From the NCBI GenBank assembly GCA_028717345.1, contig JAQUNZ010000003.1:1-64000 (forward strand): a stretch of 64,000 nt of DNA, in the 5' to 3' direction. The notes under the pieces were generated by a model. It saw only the letters and a list, made by a program, of their open reading frames with translations. It was not told the origin of the DNA and made no database searches. This stretch comes from Candidatus Methanoperedens sp. GTDB taxonomy: Archaea; Halobacteriota; Methanosarcinia; Methanosarcinales; Methanoperedenaceae. Positions within the stretch are counted from its first letter, which is position 1; every line of letters begins with the position of its first letter. Shown here in pieces: positions 15,311 through 23,125 of this stretch. The translations under genes were made by a program, and so were the position numbers.

Positions 15311-16255
15311 TTACACGCTACAACTACTGCCATTGCTGGAAGCTTTTTGGAGCATTCCCATTTCCTTCAATTTCTTGTGCATTATTCCCCAGCCTGTGCT
15401 GCTGGAATACTTCTGACTCACTATTACCTGGGGGTCAACATCCTTCCAGTCCTTGCCTTCCGTGGCTTTGAAGTATACTGCAAGCTCAAAGTATTGCCGG
15501 GAGAACCATATGCTGTTTGCGGCTTTTACCGCTTCCATGATCTGCTCCTCGGTAGCATCTTGTGATGCCAGGAGTTCAGCTAATCCGAGTGTTGCTGCGC
15601 CGTGATTGCAGTCCGGGAAAGAAGCAGGATTGTTGCAGCAGGGACGATAGCTGTTTGTAGCAACACGTTCTACAATGGCTTGCTGCTTTGGTGTGAGTTT
15701 GATGATCTCTGCACTATTCAGGAGCTCTCCGCCAGGTTTTGTTCCAATATCCCATCCACCAGTGCTTGCGAGATTTCCAGCTTGACCCGTCTCAGCATAT
15801 TGACCCATCAACCCCTCGCTGAGGAGATTGTTTTTATTTACCAATCCTAAAGCCCAGAGCGTATTCAATATGAAATGCCCGTTTTCTGGTGTCATGTATA
15901 TGGCATCATTCGAACCTTCGGTGAAAAAAGTAATCTGCTCCTCTGTCAAAGGACGACCCGAACTCTTATACAGTGTCCTGAACTTCTCAAGATCAATCAC
16001 TCCGCTGGCGACGAGCTTAGGGCCAATATTTTTCCATGTGCCAGGGAGTGCTATACCTTCCGGGGGCACAACTTGCGCGTAGAGCGCTGCGGTATTGATA
16101 TCTTTAGATTGCTTTTGATAAGTATCTGCAGGTGTTCCACTATAGTTCTCTTTAACAGAATTTTCTAGTGTTTTAATATTTGATGCAAAAAGAAATCCAC
16201 TGATAAATAATATGGTAATGATCCCAATTACTAATTCGCTAGTTTTTATGGGCAT
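15311..16255 (-). CDS. Conserved exported protein with Cys-rich 'RPCCNNPASFPDCNHG' motif
   Basis: N-terminal TM/signal; Cys/His motif; located in the cytochrome maturation cluster. Confidence 0.7.
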   Translation of the reverse strand: MPIKTSELVIGIITILFISGFLFASNIKTLENSVKENYSGTPADTYQKQSKDINTAALYAQVVPPEGIALPGTWKNIGPKLVASGVIDLEKFRTLYKSSGRPLTEEQITFFTEGSNDAIYMTPENGHFILNTLWALGLVNKNNLLSEGLMGQYAETGQAGNLASTGGWDIGTKPGGELLNSAEIIKLTPKQQAIVERVATNSYRPCCNNPASFPDCNHGAATLGLAELLASQDATEEQIMEAVKAANSIWFSRQYFELAVYFKATEGKDWKDVDPQVIVSQKYSSSTGWGIMHKKLKEMGMLQKASSNGSSCSV

Positions 16256-16311
16256 TTACAATATCACATCATTATTCATGACCGGAGAAGCACTGAAAAG
16301 CAGTTGTCCAA

Positions 16312-18687
16312 CTACCCCGTGCCTCTTGCTTTTGTTTTCGCACTCATTATCAGGATTATCCCGACCGCAAAGAGAATGATCCCGATCCATGCAAGATCCA
16401 CTGCAGGGATTATCTTGAGCGTCAGGGGGATCGAACCTCCGCCAGTTCCCTGGAATATAACATATACGTCACCAGCTAAAAGACCTAAGGACGGGCTGAC
16501 CATCGGGAATGTCCCGCTTCCGCCTTTTCCCTGAAGATATTCTGCAGTACCGCTTCCGATCTTGTTATTCCCCTGGTAGACCTCAAGTTTAACGCTCTGG
16601 ACATTGTAATTACCAGATTCAGTCCCTGCCGCTTCCCCGACATCATCAGGACGCGAGAATATTACAAGATCAAATGTTCTATTGATGGAAGAACTCTTGA
16701 ATTGCGACATCAGGAAACCCTTAGCAGAACGCGTGCTTCCTTCTTCTATGGATATGGGTTCAGCAGACTGTGTTGCAGCCCAGATGCTGCCCGTACCGTC
16801 ATCAAGCCTGATATATGCGGTATAAGTGATTGGGGGTGTCTCGGTCTGGGTTTTTAAAACCTCAACTACCTTGCCTTTTACCTGGATATTTTCGCCGGAA
16901 AATCCTCCCGGATTGGAGAGTACGTCTGATATCTTTGTTCCACCTGCTGAACTGCTTTCAGTCAGGCTGCGAGACGACAGTTCAAGAACCCTTATTCCAT
17001 AACCATCACCTACATCAAAGATCTGTCCCTGTGCTCCTATCGGTATATTGATCCTTTCAATGCTTGTTGTCCTTATAGAACTGACCACAGAGCCAAAGAT
17101 TATCAGTACCACAGCGATATGTATCATCGTCATACCAATGCCCTTGATCCTCACACGAAGGTTGGTGGAGCTCATGTATCCATTGAGATACTCGATCACA
17201 GAGGCAGTGACATATATCAAAGGAGGGAAGATGGATAATACTGAGATGCTGCCAATGAGTTTGTATATTCCCGGTTCCCGTACCCAGAACGGGCTGTTGT
17301 GGTCAAGCACGTAGAAATTATCAGTGCGCGGCAGCATTGTCAATATAGTAAGCGCTGCAACGATGAATAGTGTCTTTTTCTGTTTTTCCTTTTCTGGTTC
17401 CTTATAGTTCAGGCAGAACCCGAGAGCAAGGAGCAGTATCAGCGTAAATGGATAGCTCCATACATTGAAGAAGTTCTTGGTATCTGACGCCACATTCACC
17501 TTCAGACCCTGAGTGATCTGGATAAATACCGGGTATGTTATGCCCCAGAATGAGATGAACGCCAGCACCACGAACATGAGCAGCGTGATATAGAAAACAT
17601 TTGTCTTATTCCAGAATCCCCTGTCTTCTTCTGCGGTTTCTGCTTCTTCAAAGTACCGTTTTATCCCAAGACCAAGAGACACGAGCGTGGTCAGACCTAT
17701 AGATAGCAGCAGCAGTGTTCCTGTTGAGGCTTCTCCAAAAGCGTGCACAGAGTTGAAAAGACCGCTTCGCACCACTATGGCTGCATAAATGATAAGGATA
17801 AAAGAGACCGCTGAAAGCATTGGCGTAGCTATCGCAAAGGTGTTCTTGTTTTTCCTGTGAAGTGCTGCCGCATGGAGGTAGCCTGTGAGTGTGAGCCAGG
17901 GGATGAACGACGCGGTCTCCACCGGGTCCCATGCCCAGAATCCACCCCAGCCAAGGATAAAATATGCCCAGACCCCGCCGACGGCGATGCCCATTCCAAG
18001 GATCAGCCAGGTAAAGCGCGCCCACTGCCTGCCAAGCTCTTCCCATCCTTCATCTTTTGTGATAAGATATACGATGGCTGCAGCAAATGGTATTGTCATT
18101 CCTGCATAGCCGATGAACATTAAAGGCGGATGCAGTATCATCCAGATGTTCACAAGAAGCGCATTAAGCCCATTGCCTGCTGCAGGCACAAAGTTGGCAG
18201 GCAGGTCGCCCCTGGCGATCATATCAGCGATGTTTGGTAACTCGTATATAGATTTAAAAGGTGTCTGGATCAGTGTGAGAACTATGAAATATATCCCTAT
18301 AATAAGCGTTATTATTTGTGTTCTCCTTTCAAGCGGGGTTGAATGCTTTGTGGTGATCGCAAGCCAAGCCGAAGAGAGGAATATAACCCATACCCAGAGC
18401 AGGTATGTCCCGGGCTGACCCGCCCAGGTGCCTGATAACTTGTATATCATAGGCAGATCGGTGCTTGAGTACTCCCATACATATTCGTACGTAAAGTCAC
18501 TCACTGCGAAATAATAGGTGAGGAGCAGGTAGGCGAATGTGAGAAGTCCGGCAGATAGAAGTATCGCAGGTGTGACAAACTTTGAAAAAATCTCGCTCTT
18601 TTTAAACTCTTTCAACAACAATCCAAGAAGCGCAATCGCGCTAACCACTAGTGTGGCATAAAGTATCTGGTTTCCAAAAGTGATCAT
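16312..18687 (-). CDS. ccmF: CcmF/CcsA-type cytochrome c assembly protein (heme lyase) with C-terminal OB-fold-like domain
   Basis: WWD-like 'GWGGFWAWDPVETASFIPWL', multi-TM; 'GENIQVKGKVVEVLKTQ...LDDGTGSIWAAT' OB-like. Confidence 0.9.
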   Translation of the reverse strand: MITFGNQILYATLVVSAIALLGLLLKEFKKSEIFSKFVTPAILLSAGLLTFAYLLLTYYFAVSDFTYEYVWEYSSTDLPMIYKLSGTWAGQPGTYLLWVWVIFLSSAWLAITTKHSTPLERRTQIITLIIGIYFIVLTLIQTPFKSIYELPNIADMIARGDLPANFVPAAGNGLNALLVNIWMILHPPLMFIGYAGMTIPFAAAIVYLITKDEGWEELGRQWARFTWLILGMGIAVGGVWAYFILGWGGFWAWDPVETASFIPWLTLTGYLHAAALHRKNKNTFAIATPMLSAVSFILIIYAAIVVRSGLFNSVHAFGEASTGTLLLLSIGLTTLVSLGLGIKRYFEEAETAEEDRGFWNKTNVFYITLLMFVVLAFISFWGITYPVFIQITQGLKVNVASDTKNFFNVWSYPFTLILLLALGFCLNYKEPEKEKQKKTLFIVAALTILTMLPRTDNFYVLDHNSPFWVREPGIYKLIGSISVLSIFPPLIYVTASVIEYLNGYMSSTNLRVRIKGIGMTMIHIAVVLIIFGSVVSSIRTTSIERINIPIGAQGQIFDVGDGYGIRVLELSSRSLTESSSAGGTKISDVLSNPGGFSGENIQVKGKVVEVLKTQTETPPITYTAYIRLDDGTGSIWAATQSAEPISIEEGSTRSAKGFLMSQFKSSSINRTFDLVIFSRPDDVGEAAGTESGNYNVQSVKLEVYQGNNKIGSGTAEYLQGKGGSGTFPMVSPSLGLLAGDVYVIFQGTGGGSIPLTLKIIPAVDLAWIGIILFAVGIILIMSAKTKARGTG

Positions 18688-18688
18688 A

Positions 18689-19171
18689 TTATTTGCTCCT
18701 GACCTGGTCCCTTACCTGGGTAACAATAGGAAGGAATGTCCCTGCATCCACCGCACCTGCAACCCTTTCGATCACATTCCCCTTACTATCGAGGAAAAGC
18801 ACATATGGCGGGTAGCTTACACCATATTTGCCCGACACGTCCCTGTCAATATCAAGGTCCATTGCTACGAGTACATAGTCATCCTGAAGTATTTTCTTTA
18901 CCTGCGGATTCCCGAGAGTGTCTGATTGGAATTTTGCACAGTACTGGCACCATATAGCCCAGAAATAAACTGCAATTGGCTTGTTTTCAAGTGAAGCCTG
19001 CTCAAAACCTTTCTCAAGACCTGGAGCTGAACGGTACCAGGTGAGACCTGCAAGATATGAGTAATTGCTGTCGCTCAGCCTGAAGTCGGAAAGGGAGATG
19101 TTATATGTTCCAACTGCGATGGCAAGGATCAGTATCAGTACAAATATAGTGGTCAGTTTCTTGGTTTTCAT
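18689..19171 (-). CDS. Membrane-anchored thioredoxin-fold protein
   Basis: 'KPIAVYFWAIWCQYCAKFQSDTL', N-terminal TM. Confidence 0.9.
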   Translation of the reverse strand: MKTKKLTTIFVLILILAIAVGTYNISLSDFRLSDSNYSYLAGLTWYRSAPGLEKGFEQASLENKPIAVYFWAIWCQYCAKFQSDTLGNPQVKKILQDDYVLVAMDLDIDRDVSGKYGVSYPPYVLFLDSKGNVIERVAGAVDAGTFLPIVTQVRDQVRSK

Positions 19172-19260
19172 ATGTATGTTCCTAAATTGTTTGGACTATA
19201 TAAGCTTATTTTGTTTTTTTGGATCTTAGCAGGTTTAATAGCATATATTTTGATGTAAAT

Positions 19261-20655
19261 TCATATTATCGGGATTGTCAGTATCTTCACTCCTATTAAC
19301 AGATAAACAACAGCGGTTACGCCTATCGCAAACATACTCTGGCGCAGTTCTTTTTCAGTTTGTGACAGCCTTTTGCTTATAAGATAGCCAGTCCATACCG
19401 TGAAAATGAAACCTGCAAGAAGGAGGAGGATCTGGATATGGTTTATCGTCTGGAAATTTATTGCAAATTCCCATACTTTCCCGAACATTTTTCCTATAGT
19501 GCTTATTATCAGGAGTATTCCTTTCAGGAACCTGAAGGTGTTCTCAGCAAGGTAAACTGACAGCGCCAGTGGGATAAAGGCATAAGAGAGATCGATGAAC
19601 TTCTGTTTTGTGTTCCCGCCCGAAAAGACCTTTGTTGATAAATACATAAGCCCTGCAGCTCCAAGCGTTATCGAAGTAAATATGATAATAGCCCACATGT
19701 TCCTGTAGTAGTTCACGAAAAAGGTATAGTTGGCAATATAATCGAATGGTGCGGTGGACCTGACAAAATTAATTATGATATTCCTGAACTCGAAGCGTTC
19801 CATTCCCATGACAAAGAGGAATATGATGATTATCCCGTGGACAAGATAAGCCTCGTCCATGTGAGTTTTCCTTGACCTGATGATATCTGCGCCCGGAAGC
19901 CTCGGACTTATCCTGATATTATCCTTTGAGCATGATTTAACGCATTCCATGCACATGATGCAGTAGTTATTGCGCTCCATGGTCTGGGGGAATTCACCCA
20001 CAGGGCAGCCTTTTCCTGCTTCGGTGCCTATCACGCATTCTTTAATATTGTGTTCTGAGCATGTTTTTTTTGATTTGCAGCGAAGCTCAATGATCGAGAG
20101 CATTGAGAACACACCGAGAACAAGACCAATAGGGCAGATGTATCTGCAGAAAGACCTTTTTTCAAATATCGCTCCCATTACCACAGCAAGCCCTGTGAAG
20201 AATATCAGCAGTAATGCTGTGTTCGGGGGATTGCGCGTGAACATGAAAAAGTGGCGTTCAGCAGCGAAAATGAGCAGGAATAAAATTACAGCTATCCAGA
20301 GGTTGCGGTATTTTTCTGGATATTTCTTTTTAAGGCTGAATACTGACTGCGTCCAGTCACCTACTGCGCCTATGGGGCATGCAAAACACCACAGCCTGCC
20401 AAAAAAAATGATCGTGAAAGCAAGTATAGGATGCCAGAGATCCCATATCATGGTCGTGGCAAAGGGAATCCCGCCGTGGAAGCGCAGGTCGGGTTTGCTT
20501 GCAAGACCGTAGTAAAGGATAATAATCAAAACTGCAAAGAATACAAGATTTACCGCGGGCTTAAAGAACCTGTTACTGAAAAGGTTATTGAAGAAATATA
20601 CATCCAGAAGGTCGGGTTTTTCGTTGTTTTCATTGTCCGTTTCGTCTTTATTCAT
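19261..20655 (-). CDS. NapH-like membrane 4Fe-4S protein
   Basis: 'FFGRLWCFACPIGAVGDW', 'CRYICPIGLVLGVFS', 'NYCIMCMECVKSCSKDNI'. Confidence 0.85.
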   Translation of the reverse strand: MNKDETDNENNEKPDLLDVYFFNNLFSNRFFKPAVNLVFFAVLIIILYYGLASKPDLRFHGGIPFATTMIWDLWHPILAFTIIFFGRLWCFACPIGAVGDWTQSVFSLKKKYPEKYRNLWIAVILFLLIFAAERHFFMFTRNPPNTALLLIFFTGLAVVMGAIFEKRSFCRYICPIGLVLGVFSMLSIIELRCKSKKTCSEHNIKECVIGTEAGKGCPVGEFPQTMERNNYCIMCMECVKSCSKDNIRISPRLPGADIIRSRKTHMDEAYLVHGIIIIFLFVMGMERFEFRNIIINFVRSTAPFDYIANYTFFVNYYRNMWAIIIFTSITLGAAGLMYLSTKVFSGGNTKQKFIDLSYAFIPLALSVYLAENTFRFLKGILLIISTIGKMFGKVWEFAINFQTINHIQILLLLAGFIFTVWTGYLISKRLSQTEKELRQSMFAIGVTAVVYLLIGVKILTIPII

Positions 20656-20661
20656 TTTACC

Positions 20662-21387
20662 TCAGAAATATACCGGGAAATAAGGCAAAAGCGCTGCCTT
20701 GATGATCCTATCTATTCCGAATAGCATCATCAGACCGACCAGTATCAAAATGAGTCCTGAAAGTTTCTTAAAGAAATGCCCTCTCTTCACGAACCAGTTG
20801 ACCCGTCCGGATATGCTCTTTCCTGAATACGCTATTATAAGCATTGGAATTGAGACGCCACCCGAATATACGATAAGAAGAAGGGTTCCATATAGCATGT
20901 CAACGCCTCCAGAACTCAACTGAACGTATGCGAACACTGCTCCGAGGATCGGTCCCACGCAGGGTATCCACAGTACGCCCAGGGACATTCCAAGGAATAG
21001 ACCGCTTAAAAGCCCCCCACCGGGAGCTTTCGAGGTAAGTTTGCCAAGGAATGACATCCGCTCCAGCACAGAGTTTACAGCAGAGCTTGAAATTTTCACA
21101 TACATCTGGTTCACATCATCGTCAAAAAGGAGCGCGCCCATTAATATAATGATAAATATAGAGAACCAGCGCAGGTACTCGGCAAAATACCCAAAAGATG
21201 CGACTGCATTAATAAGAATGCCCATCAACGTAAAAGTTATGGACATCCCTGTTACAATAGCTAAGGGTCTCAACCTGCTCCCTACGGAACCTGATAATAC
21301 TGCCGGCAGTATGGGAAGAATGCAGGGCGTGACCACCGTAGCTAGCCCTGCGATGAAAACCCATAATATTGACGGCGCAGCTTCCAT
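20662..21387 (-). CDS. ccdA: CcdA-type cytochrome c biogenesis / thiol-disulfide transporter
   Basis: 'FIAGLATVVTPCILPILPAVLSG', 'LGVLWIPCVGPILGAVFAYV'. Confidence 0.93.
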   Translation of the reverse strand: MEAAPSILWVFIAGLATVVTPCILPILPAVLSGSVGSRLRPLAIVTGMSITFTLMGILINAVASFGYFAEYLRWFSIFIIILMGALLFDDDVNQMYVKISSSAVNSVLERMSFLGKLTSKAPGGGLLSGLFLGMSLGVLWIPCVGPILGAVFAYVQLSSGGVDMLYGTLLLIVYSGGVSIPMLIIAYSGKSISGRVNWFVKRGHFFKKLSGLILILVGLMMLFGIDRIIKAALLPYFPVYF

Positions 21388-21399
21388 TAATAAATGTCC

Positions 21400-22659
21400 T
21401 TAAATATCAATTCCGTAATTTTGCATCGCTTCAGACCTGACGTTAGACAGGGTGGATGTCATTCTTATGATTAATGTATTGTTTTCCATGCTGACTTCAT
21501 ATGACCTGAAGCCGCGACCTGAACTTGAATTCTTAAGGTCATTGTACTTCGCAAGAGGAACAGCCGCTCTGTCTTTGATACTGAATGCGATCTCTCCTGT
21601 AATATCGTTCCCTGATCTTATAAAACCGATGTAACTCGCATTTGCAAAAGAAGATGCATTGGAGTTTATCTTGGCAAATCCTGCATTCTCATCGTTCACT
21701 TTTTCAAGGAGGGACTTATAAGTATTGTATGCAGTTGCATTGCTTTGCTCTTTAAAGAGAGCCTGCACGCTCGCCGTCATGTCTTTCGTGCTGTATATGA
21801 ATGGTCTTGTTGACAGGATATGATCTGCGTCATTACCTGCTCTTGATTGAACGCTGGCTAAGGATTTTCCAACATCATGCAGTTCAACCCACGAGTTTTT
21901 TGAATATTCTGAGTTCAGCATCCCTATTATTTGCGTCCCGTAAAAATCAACACCTGGCATAGCACTTTCCTCAATGCCTGTTCCCTGTTTCAGGTTGGCA
22001 AAATATGCCCATGAGATCCCGGCTGGAGTTAACTTCAAACCATCGCTTAAGGACTTGAAATTATCTGAAAGGGAAAGGGAAGACAGGTCTGTCTGGGGAG
22101 CAGTTGTTTTTGAGGGTGTGGGCAAAGGCGCTGTAGATGCCGCAAGTTTCGGTGTGAGTATTGGGTTATAAGTGTCGCTTACAGGTGGTGTTTTCGTTCT
22201 TCCATCTGCATACTTGGGTCCATATTCCTTATCTATCAATGCCCTGGCTTCCTTGAGGGTCTTACCTGATTCAAGGTAATTCTGGACTTTTAATGCTTCC
22301 CCGATACACACATCGCAGTACCTGGCATGTTCTTCATATGTCCAGTCATCATGAATGAAACAATCGCGAAGGAACCTGTGCCCCGAGTGTCCGCCGCAGC
22401 CGCAGTAGCACGGAATCTGTTCGAGTACATCAGGATGTTTTGTGGCATAAGTGTACCCGCTTAGAGCCAGTGCATCTGTATAAACGTAATCCGGGAATTT
22501 TATTTCAGGGTTCTGTTTATCCTTGTTTGAATCTGTGCCGCTGAAAAAAACATACCCAATGGCTGCCAAAAGGATCACTGCTGCTGCCCCAATGATCAAT
22601 GTGTTATTTCCCTTCTTTTTCGTAACTATCTTATTCTTAGCTTTTCGTTCAGGTCTCAT
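21400..22659 (-). CDS. PCYCGC-motif exported protein
   Basis: 'QIPCYCGCGGHSGHRFLRDCFIHDDWTYEEHARYCDVCIGEALKVQNYL'; N-terminal TM. Confidence 0.87.
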   Translation of the reverse strand: MRPERKAKNKIVTKKKGNNTLIIGAAAVILLAAIGYVFFSGTDSNKDKQNPEIKFPDYVYTDALALSGYTYATKHPDVLEQIPCYCGCGGHSGHRFLRDCFIHDDWTYEEHARYCDVCIGEALKVQNYLESGKTLKEARALIDKEYGPKYADGRTKTPPVSDTYNPILTPKLAASTAPLPTPSKTTAPQTDLSSLSLSDNFKSLSDGLKLTPAGISWAYFANLKQGTGIEESAMPGVDFYGTQIIGMLNSEYSKNSWVELHDVGKSLASVQSRAGNDADHILSTRPFIYSTKDMTASVQALFKEQSNATAYNTYKSLLEKVNDENAGFAKINSNASSFANASYIGFIRSGNDITGEIAFSIKDRAAVPLAKYNDLKNSSSGRGFRSYEVSMENNTLIIRMTSTLSNVRSEAMQNYGIDI

Positions 22660-23125
22660 TTTTAAGTCCTCTTGTTAAATTTGCTATCTCATTTATGGTA
22701 TTCAGGAATGTCTGGTTGTCAACGTATCCAGGCAGCCTTTTTATCTCGCTGCCATTAGCGTAAAGGAACAGTTCACTCGGAGTTCCGCGGACTCCATATA
22801 ATCTTGTAATGTTCTTCTGCTTATAGACGTCGATGGAGACTATCGTAAAGTTATTTGAAAGTATCCCAACTATGCTTTTATTCGTGTACGATTCCTCTTC
22901 GAACTTCTTGCACCACCCGCATGTGTCAGATCTGAAATATACGAATAAAGGCTCGCCTGTTTTGTTTGAAACCTCAAAAGCTTTCGTGAGGTTTGTGAAG
23001 AATTTCAGGTCTTTTAATTCCAGTTTACCGTAGTCTGGAGCAAGTTCCTCGATGCATCCTGACAAAAACAGCGCCGATATAAGTGCCAGTAGAAGTATTA
23101 CTGGTATAAATTTCTTCAAGGTCAT
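22649..23125 (-). CDS. Thioredoxin-fold lipoprotein
   Basis: Lipobox-like 'LFLSGC'; 'LFVYFRSDTCGWCKKFEEES'. Confidence 0.88.
   Translation of the reverse strand: MTLKKFIPVILLLALISALFLSGCIEELAPDYGKLELKDLKFFTNLTKAFEVSNKTGEPLFVYFRSDTCGWCKKFEEESYTNKSIVGILSNNFTIVSIDVYKQKNITRLYGVRGTPSELFLYANGSEIKRLPGYVDNQTFLNTINEIANLTRGLKNET

Follow-up and report, generated by a model that had tools for sequence, protein, structure and literature searches.

A conserved six-gene CcmF operon as a probable extra cytochrome c maturation unit in Candidatus Methanoperedens, and a late-added exported protein at its end

The window, a 64,000-nucleotide stretch of a Candidatus Methanoperedens contig (JAQUNZ010000003.1, positions 1 to 64,000), contains seven minus-strand open reading frames at 15311-23125, which are designated P7 to P1 in gene order (Table 1). 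P7 and P6 overlap by 11 bp, and the later gaps from P6 to P1 are 12, 6, 89, 1 and 56 bp, an operon-like spacing. A sequence-only reading of this DNA had described seven same-strand genes, all of which are found in place. Its family calls for the two thioredoxins (CQYC and CGWC), the NapH-like protein, CcdA, CcmF and the PCYCGC protein are matched by Pfam and NCBIfam profiles, and the Cys/His motifs that it quoted are present in P1 and P6, although its label "Cys-rich" is generous for P1, which has 4 Cys in 314 aa.

Table 1. Coordinates of the genes and motifs at the P7-P1 locus of the window.
Feature	Coordinates	Strand	Description	Basis
P7	22649..23125	-	thioredoxin-like, CGWC, lipobox-like N-terminus, first operon gene	PF13098 E=4e-14
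P6	21400..22659	-	membrane-anchored PCYCGC protein with ~230-aa C-terminal domain	PF13798 68.9 bits
P6 motif IPCYCGCGGHSGH	22378..22416	-	residues 82-94	alignment A5
P6 CDVC	22306..22317	-	C115 and C118 invariant	
P5	20662..21387	-	CcdA (DsbD_TM), membrane thiol electron carrier	PF02683 47.4 bits
P4	19261..20655	-	NapH-like membrane Fe-S protein (Fer4_5)	PF12801 E=4.7e-9
P3	18689..19171	-	membrane-anchored thioredoxin-like, CQYC	PF13098 E=8.4e-15
P2	16312..18687	-	long CcmF, 791 aa, cytochrome c synthase	PF01578 103.7 bits
P2 WWD domain WGGFWAWDPVETASFIPW	17896..17949	-		alignment with E. coli CcmF
P2 extra soluble insert	16618..16980 (approximate bounds)	-	OB-fold-like by eye	alignment
P1	15311..16255	-	membrane-anchored RPCC...DCNHG protein; species-specific, judged outside the conserved operon	
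P1 motif RPCCNNPASFPDCNHG	15599..15646	-	residues 204-219	81-row and 55-row alignments

The alignment places H186, H272, H315 and H523 of P2 at H173, H261, H303 and H491 of E. coli CcmF. Since the four histidines and the WWD domain are intact, P2 is read as a probable working cytochrome c synthase. Its soluble insert is shared with the CcmF of a sister-family genome (G225) and is missing in E. coli CcmF and in the CcmF encoded on contig C20 of the same genome. P2 is also NrfE/CcmF-like by NCBIfam; the assignment as NrfE, the dedicated CXXCK haem lyase, was rejected (233.6 bits against a cut-off of 927.3), and a Virul_fac_BrkB match under the cut-off was dropped. The sequence-only reading had stated that ccmABC are absent here, which holds for the window, and the missing genes sit on other contigs: CcmB at C4:48919-49572, CcmE on C20, and CcmC-sized Cytochrom_C_asm genes on C4 and C93. 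The genome thus contains the CcmB and CcmE that System I requires. No CcmH was found by Pfam among the six operon genes P7-P2, and CcmH is present on C20 and C93. Within the window, the count of haem motifs gave no multihaem cytochrome and a single CXXCH, which lies in a 79-aa open reading frame.

These features resemble the archaeal variant of System I (Ccm) in the four histidines and WWD domain of the synthase, in the CcdA/thioredoxin reductants and in the placement of the CcmB and CcmE genes at other sites of the genome. ANME-2d genomes likewise contain several CcmF copies and CcmH homologs (PMC9012536, PMC9084895); CcmF paralogs occur in ANME, among which CcmH has been reported only for ANME-2d (Chadwick 2022, PMC9012536). 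The operon differs from System I in the extra soluble insert of P2, in the lack of CcmH among P7-P2 and, compared with the descriptions found in the literature, in the fixed arrangement of PCYCGC, NapH-like and two thioredoxin genes around a long CcmF. No description of such an operon was found in the literature searched, an absence that is not proof of novelty. In Methanosarcina acetivorans, CcdA and CcmG are dispensable for cytochrome c maturation under reducing conditions (PMC9084895).

P3 resembles the C-terminal domain of DsbD (39.7 bits with the DsbD model), and P5 scores above the PF02683 gathering score of 27.1. P4 shares the Fer4_5 core and the Cys motifs of the NapH/MauN family of ferredoxin-type membrane proteins but differs in its length of 464 aa and in its neighbours, which are CcdA, thioredoxin and PCYCGC genes rather than nap genes. 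Its score of 35.1 bits with the NapH models is far under the equivalog cut-off of 234, and it was therefore rejected as a NapH equivalog. For the NapH homologs of ANME, a suggestive gene cluster has been noted in only one ANME-2c genome (Chadwick et al., PMC9012536).

The PCYCGC protein had been taken for a member of an unknown family. The family already has a name, PF13798 or the CYCXC (seleno)protein family, and is recorded as function-unknown (PMC13068155). P6 exceeds the PF13798 cut-off of 25 and was rejected as a member of the NF041379 CYCXC (seleno)protein equivalog (71.4 bits against a cut-off of 90). Among 32 aligned homologs, C84, C86, C88, H91, H94, C100, H111, C115 and C118 are invariant, six Cys and three His in all. 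P6 thus has the invariant CYCGC, H, C, H and CxxC of PF13798/NF041379 and is unlike that family in its fused C-terminal domain and its link to CcmF. In one selenoprotein of the PCYCGC family, Sec replaces a Cys of the CxxC (UxxC; PMC13188914), which by analogy points to a redox-active thiol in the family. A PDB sequence search with P6 gave no match, and the matches of the PDB fold search were meaningless, as only residues ~52-172 and some stretches of the C-terminal domain are modelled with confidence.

The long P6 homologs vary in the order of their parts. In 13 of 32, a (K)TLKEVRA.IDxEYG..TNTPPV.DDY.PIL segment precedes the CYCGC part instead of following it (for example L131:7209-8510, L132:9366-10661 and L133:8655-9938; window counterpart 21400-22659). 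This is a natural segment swap, resembling a circular permutation, and the tree of the C-terminal domain requires at least three switches of segment order. The C-terminal domain (21403-22092 in the window) also occurs as a stand-alone protein of ~300 aa in most family genomes, such as locus L172 (G011:C86).

The order Trx-PCYCGC-CcdA-NapH-Trx-CcmF is whole in 21 of the 37 loci extracted from the family, and in six more only the middle CcdA is missing; most of the remaining loci are interrupted by contig ends. P7 keeps its position in most relatives. The six genes also stand in identical order, with 32-56% identity, in G225 (locus L187), which belongs to another family within the order. All 34 family genomes carry both a PCYCGC protein and Cytochrom_C_asm. 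Across Halobacteriota, Cytochrom_C_asm is present in 6/6 genomes with PF13798 versus 183/388 overall, a co-occurrence that is weak alone because four of the six genomes come from one family; the genomes in these counts are not phylogenetically independent. The genome studied here also encodes methanogenesis marker 8. Its genus comprises about 30 other sampled species and its order a second family, of Methanosarcinaceae-like genomes; with the presence of CcmH, this makes Methanoperedenaceae its likely family.

A second maturation locus (locus B; G000:C20, L135:2244-9407) has the conserved order CcmE-CcmF-CcmH-X559-X332-cupredoxin-CcdA-PCYCGC, with a CcmF of 665 aa, two uncharacterised proteins of 559 and 332 aa and a short PCYCGC protein of 160 aa. 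Together with the window operon (locus A), this locus shows that the PCYCGC-CcdA-CcmF link exists in two arrangements within one genome. Several relatives have an additional, different CcmH at locus B, which makes two CcmH genes.

The tie between PCYCGC and cytochrome maturation is supported in this archaeal lineage, and the six-gene operon can credibly be read as an additional cytochrome c synthase unit that brings its own chain for thiol reduction. We favour, with a probability of about 0.62, the reading that P7-P2 form an extra maturation unit of the System I type and that P1 is not one of its components. CcdA (P5), and probably the NapH-like Fe-S protein (P4) as well, would take up electrons from the cytoplasm and pass them to the extracytoplasmic thioredoxin-like P7 and P3. 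These would hold PCYCGC (P6) and the CXXCH cysteines of the apocytochrome reduced and metal-free, and P2 would then attach haem delivered by CcmE, with CcmB and CcmE supplied from elsewhere in the genome. The gene content, the conserved order, the intact CcmF residues and the link of PCYCGC to CcmF at two loci are observed; the part given to PCYCGC, any substrate specificity and the electron flow are inferred, the last of these from the protein families. Most archaea with many multihaem cytochromes are without CcmH/CcmI, and a fixed CcmF/PCYCGC/CcdA/NapH/Trx operon would explain, in a specific and testable way, how one lineage reduces and ligates its apocytochromes.

P1 belongs to no Pfam or NCBIfam family; a pectic lyase match (E=0.1) fell under the cut-off and was rejected. 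It carries the ASTGGW, RPCC-N and DCNHG motifs and the C-terminal Cys that are invariant in its relatives, and in the P1 motif the residues R, P, C, C, N, D, C, N, H and G are invariant. The relatives were first met on Burkholderia/Paraburkholderia plasmids, in copper and mercury islands (NZ_CP090638, NZ_CP099644), where homologs with 32-37% identity stand with P-type ATPases, CcdA, thioredoxins and heavy-metal regulators; the window P1 differs in that no metal transporter adjoins it. A genome-wide scan extended the family to at least 349 loci, spread over CPR, DPANN, Chloroflexota and some further lineages, the lineage names resting on the best 80 of these. In the surroundings of 81 P1 loci, up to six genes away, are DUF1573 (44), P-type ATPases (41), CcdA-like proteins (39), cupredoxins (32), CsoR-type repressors (16) and YHS proteins (16), and such neighbourhoods suggest a possible place for P1 in copper/metal systems. 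In the tree, the window P1 adjoins DPANN sequences with modest support (80/71; 84/92 one fork deeper). The AlphaFold model of P1 is confident (mean pLDDT 90.1), with no fold relative in the PDB (best E=0.63, TM 0.12) and no significant match in a PDB sequence search. P1 was not found in viral contigs, and PADLOC gave no match.

The sequence-only reading had joined all seven genes into one complete reduction/ligation module, in which P1 and the PCYCGC protein would both be new maturation or electron-transfer factors. P1 is indeed co-directional and begins 56 bp after CcmF, and it adjoins PCYCGC in a Chloroflexota operon (L228), so that the two are functionally related somewhere. However, P1 has no homolog in the 33 other genomes of the 34 searched in the family, despite the conservation of its six partners there, nor in the rest of the 394 sampled genomes of the phylum. 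Cytochrom_C_asm is missing from 37 of the 50 P1 genomes tested and likewise from G649, the genome of L228, where NapH, PCYCGC and P1 are consecutive, and genes carrying at least two haem motifs are absent within six genes of the 81 P1 loci. The sequence-only reading had agreed beforehand to give up a factor whose family is widespread in genomes lacking c-type cytochromes, and the 37 genomes without any cytochrome c assembly protein present that very case for P1. The seven-gene module is thereby largely refuted for P1 and very improbable as a whole; what survives of it are the six genes P7-P2 as a module and PCYCGC, tied to CcmF at two loci, as a candidate factor. The seven genes are two parts with different histories: P7-P2 (16312-23125) is genuine and conserved, a variation on a known kind of system, and P1, sporadic and otherwise found in copper/thiol neighbourhoods, is an unrelated late addition. 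From its distribution, neighbourhoods, tree and confident model without a PDB match, P1 is read as a putative exported thiol/metal-associated protein acquired by this species, most likely by horizontal transfer, as a member of a copper/thiol-associated exported family that landed at the operon end. The GC content of P1 (45.3%) fits its neighbours and the window (44.2%), so an assembly chimera is not favoured as its probable origin.

Two other explanations concern the six genes themselves. PCYCGC, NapH, CcdA and the thioredoxins might serve primarily in copper handling or CuA-site assembly, with putative Cu(I) on the C6H3 set and the thiols kept reduced, and CcmF would be present because the same cysteines are contested by copper and by haem attachment. 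Outside this lineage, PCYCGC tends to accompany NapH-like, CuA-type cupredoxin or copper ATPase genes more than CcmF. Among 29 PCYCGC genes (Chloroflexota plus four Bacillota/Thermomicrobium plasmid loci), a cupredoxin is near 12, a NapH-like gene near 10 and a Cu-ATPase/HMA gene near 8; the Exiguobacterium gene adjoins a metal P-type ATPase and a multicopper oxidase, and at locus B the cupredoxin is two genes from PCYCGC. The primary chemistry of PCYCGC may therefore concern copper, and the Chloroflexota neighbourhoods leave room for this explanation. It is nevertheless unlikely for the window operon, which is without a copper transporter or cupredoxin and has CcmF as a fixed member. Alternatively, PCYCGC could be a divergent CcmH, its CxxC and helical tail GKTLKEARALIDKEYG serving the long CcmF as CcmH serves the canonical one. 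Its comparison with the CcmH of this lineage by hhalign gives a probability of 54% (type 1) or 40% (both types), where six control families reach 0.0-0.5%, and locus A has PCYCGC without CcmH. But the type 2 profile alone gives no more than 2%, the principal match spans 33 columns within a generic helical tail, P6 has no Pfam match to CcmH (PF03918) at E<=1, and locus B holds both proteins; CcmH is also not among the top PDB fold matches listed, which come from a low-confidence P6 model. This explanation is quite improbable, and homology of PCYCGC to CcmH is not claimed, the 54% over a short helical tail being suggestive at most. The extra System I type unit remains our preferred account of P7-P2.

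In Chloroflexota, the orders CcdA-Trx-PCYCGC-NapH (L209) and NapH-PCYCGC-P1 (L228) place PCYCGC and P1 in a single functional neighbourhood for which cytochrome maturation is not required. Co-occurrence with Cytochrom_C_asm in this phylum (33/34 PCYCGC genomes versus 270/301) is uninformative because the background is 90%. The loci suggest a shared extracytoplasmic thiol/copper guild of P1 and PCYCGC, and the CcmF link of PCYCGC is a feature of the archaeal lineage. It is possible, if tentative, that P1, PCYCGC, the NapH-like protein and a CC/CxxC-type CcdA-like protein form an undescribed extracytoplasmic thiol/copper relay across CPR, DPANN and Chloroflexota, half of which was rewired to a dedicated CcmF in methane-oxidising archaea. 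In that case an exported protein that handles Cu(I) or disulfides, and whose fold is without a solved relative, would be recharged by membrane thiols, and the rewiring, if true, would assign a function to the "orphan" NapH homologs of ANME. The P1 family, common in CPR/DPANN, exported, unnamed, without a fold match and consistent in its copper/thiol neighbourhood, is a clean target for the study of a new envelope function in organisms that are very hard to cultivate.

Several recurrent gene forms accompany these families. In Chloroflexota, the arrangement PCYCGC, CuA-type cupredoxin, NapH-like protein and COX2-like cupredoxin/cytochrome c (L213:7600-10894) recurs in several genomes. The CcdA-like neighbour of P1 at L063:4952-5770 and 35 further members of its cluster contain paired cysteines (FAPCC...SCCAPV), and the scanned representative of the cluster has no Pfam match to DsbD_TM; most of the 39 CcdA-like P1 neighbours carry FAPCC...CCAPV. 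About 20 P1 homologs, with CPR examples at L042:7567-9060 and L041:9248-10789, are fused to an N-terminal polytopic membrane domain, which in most of them contains a CxxC within a GCPVCG/GCSVCS motif.
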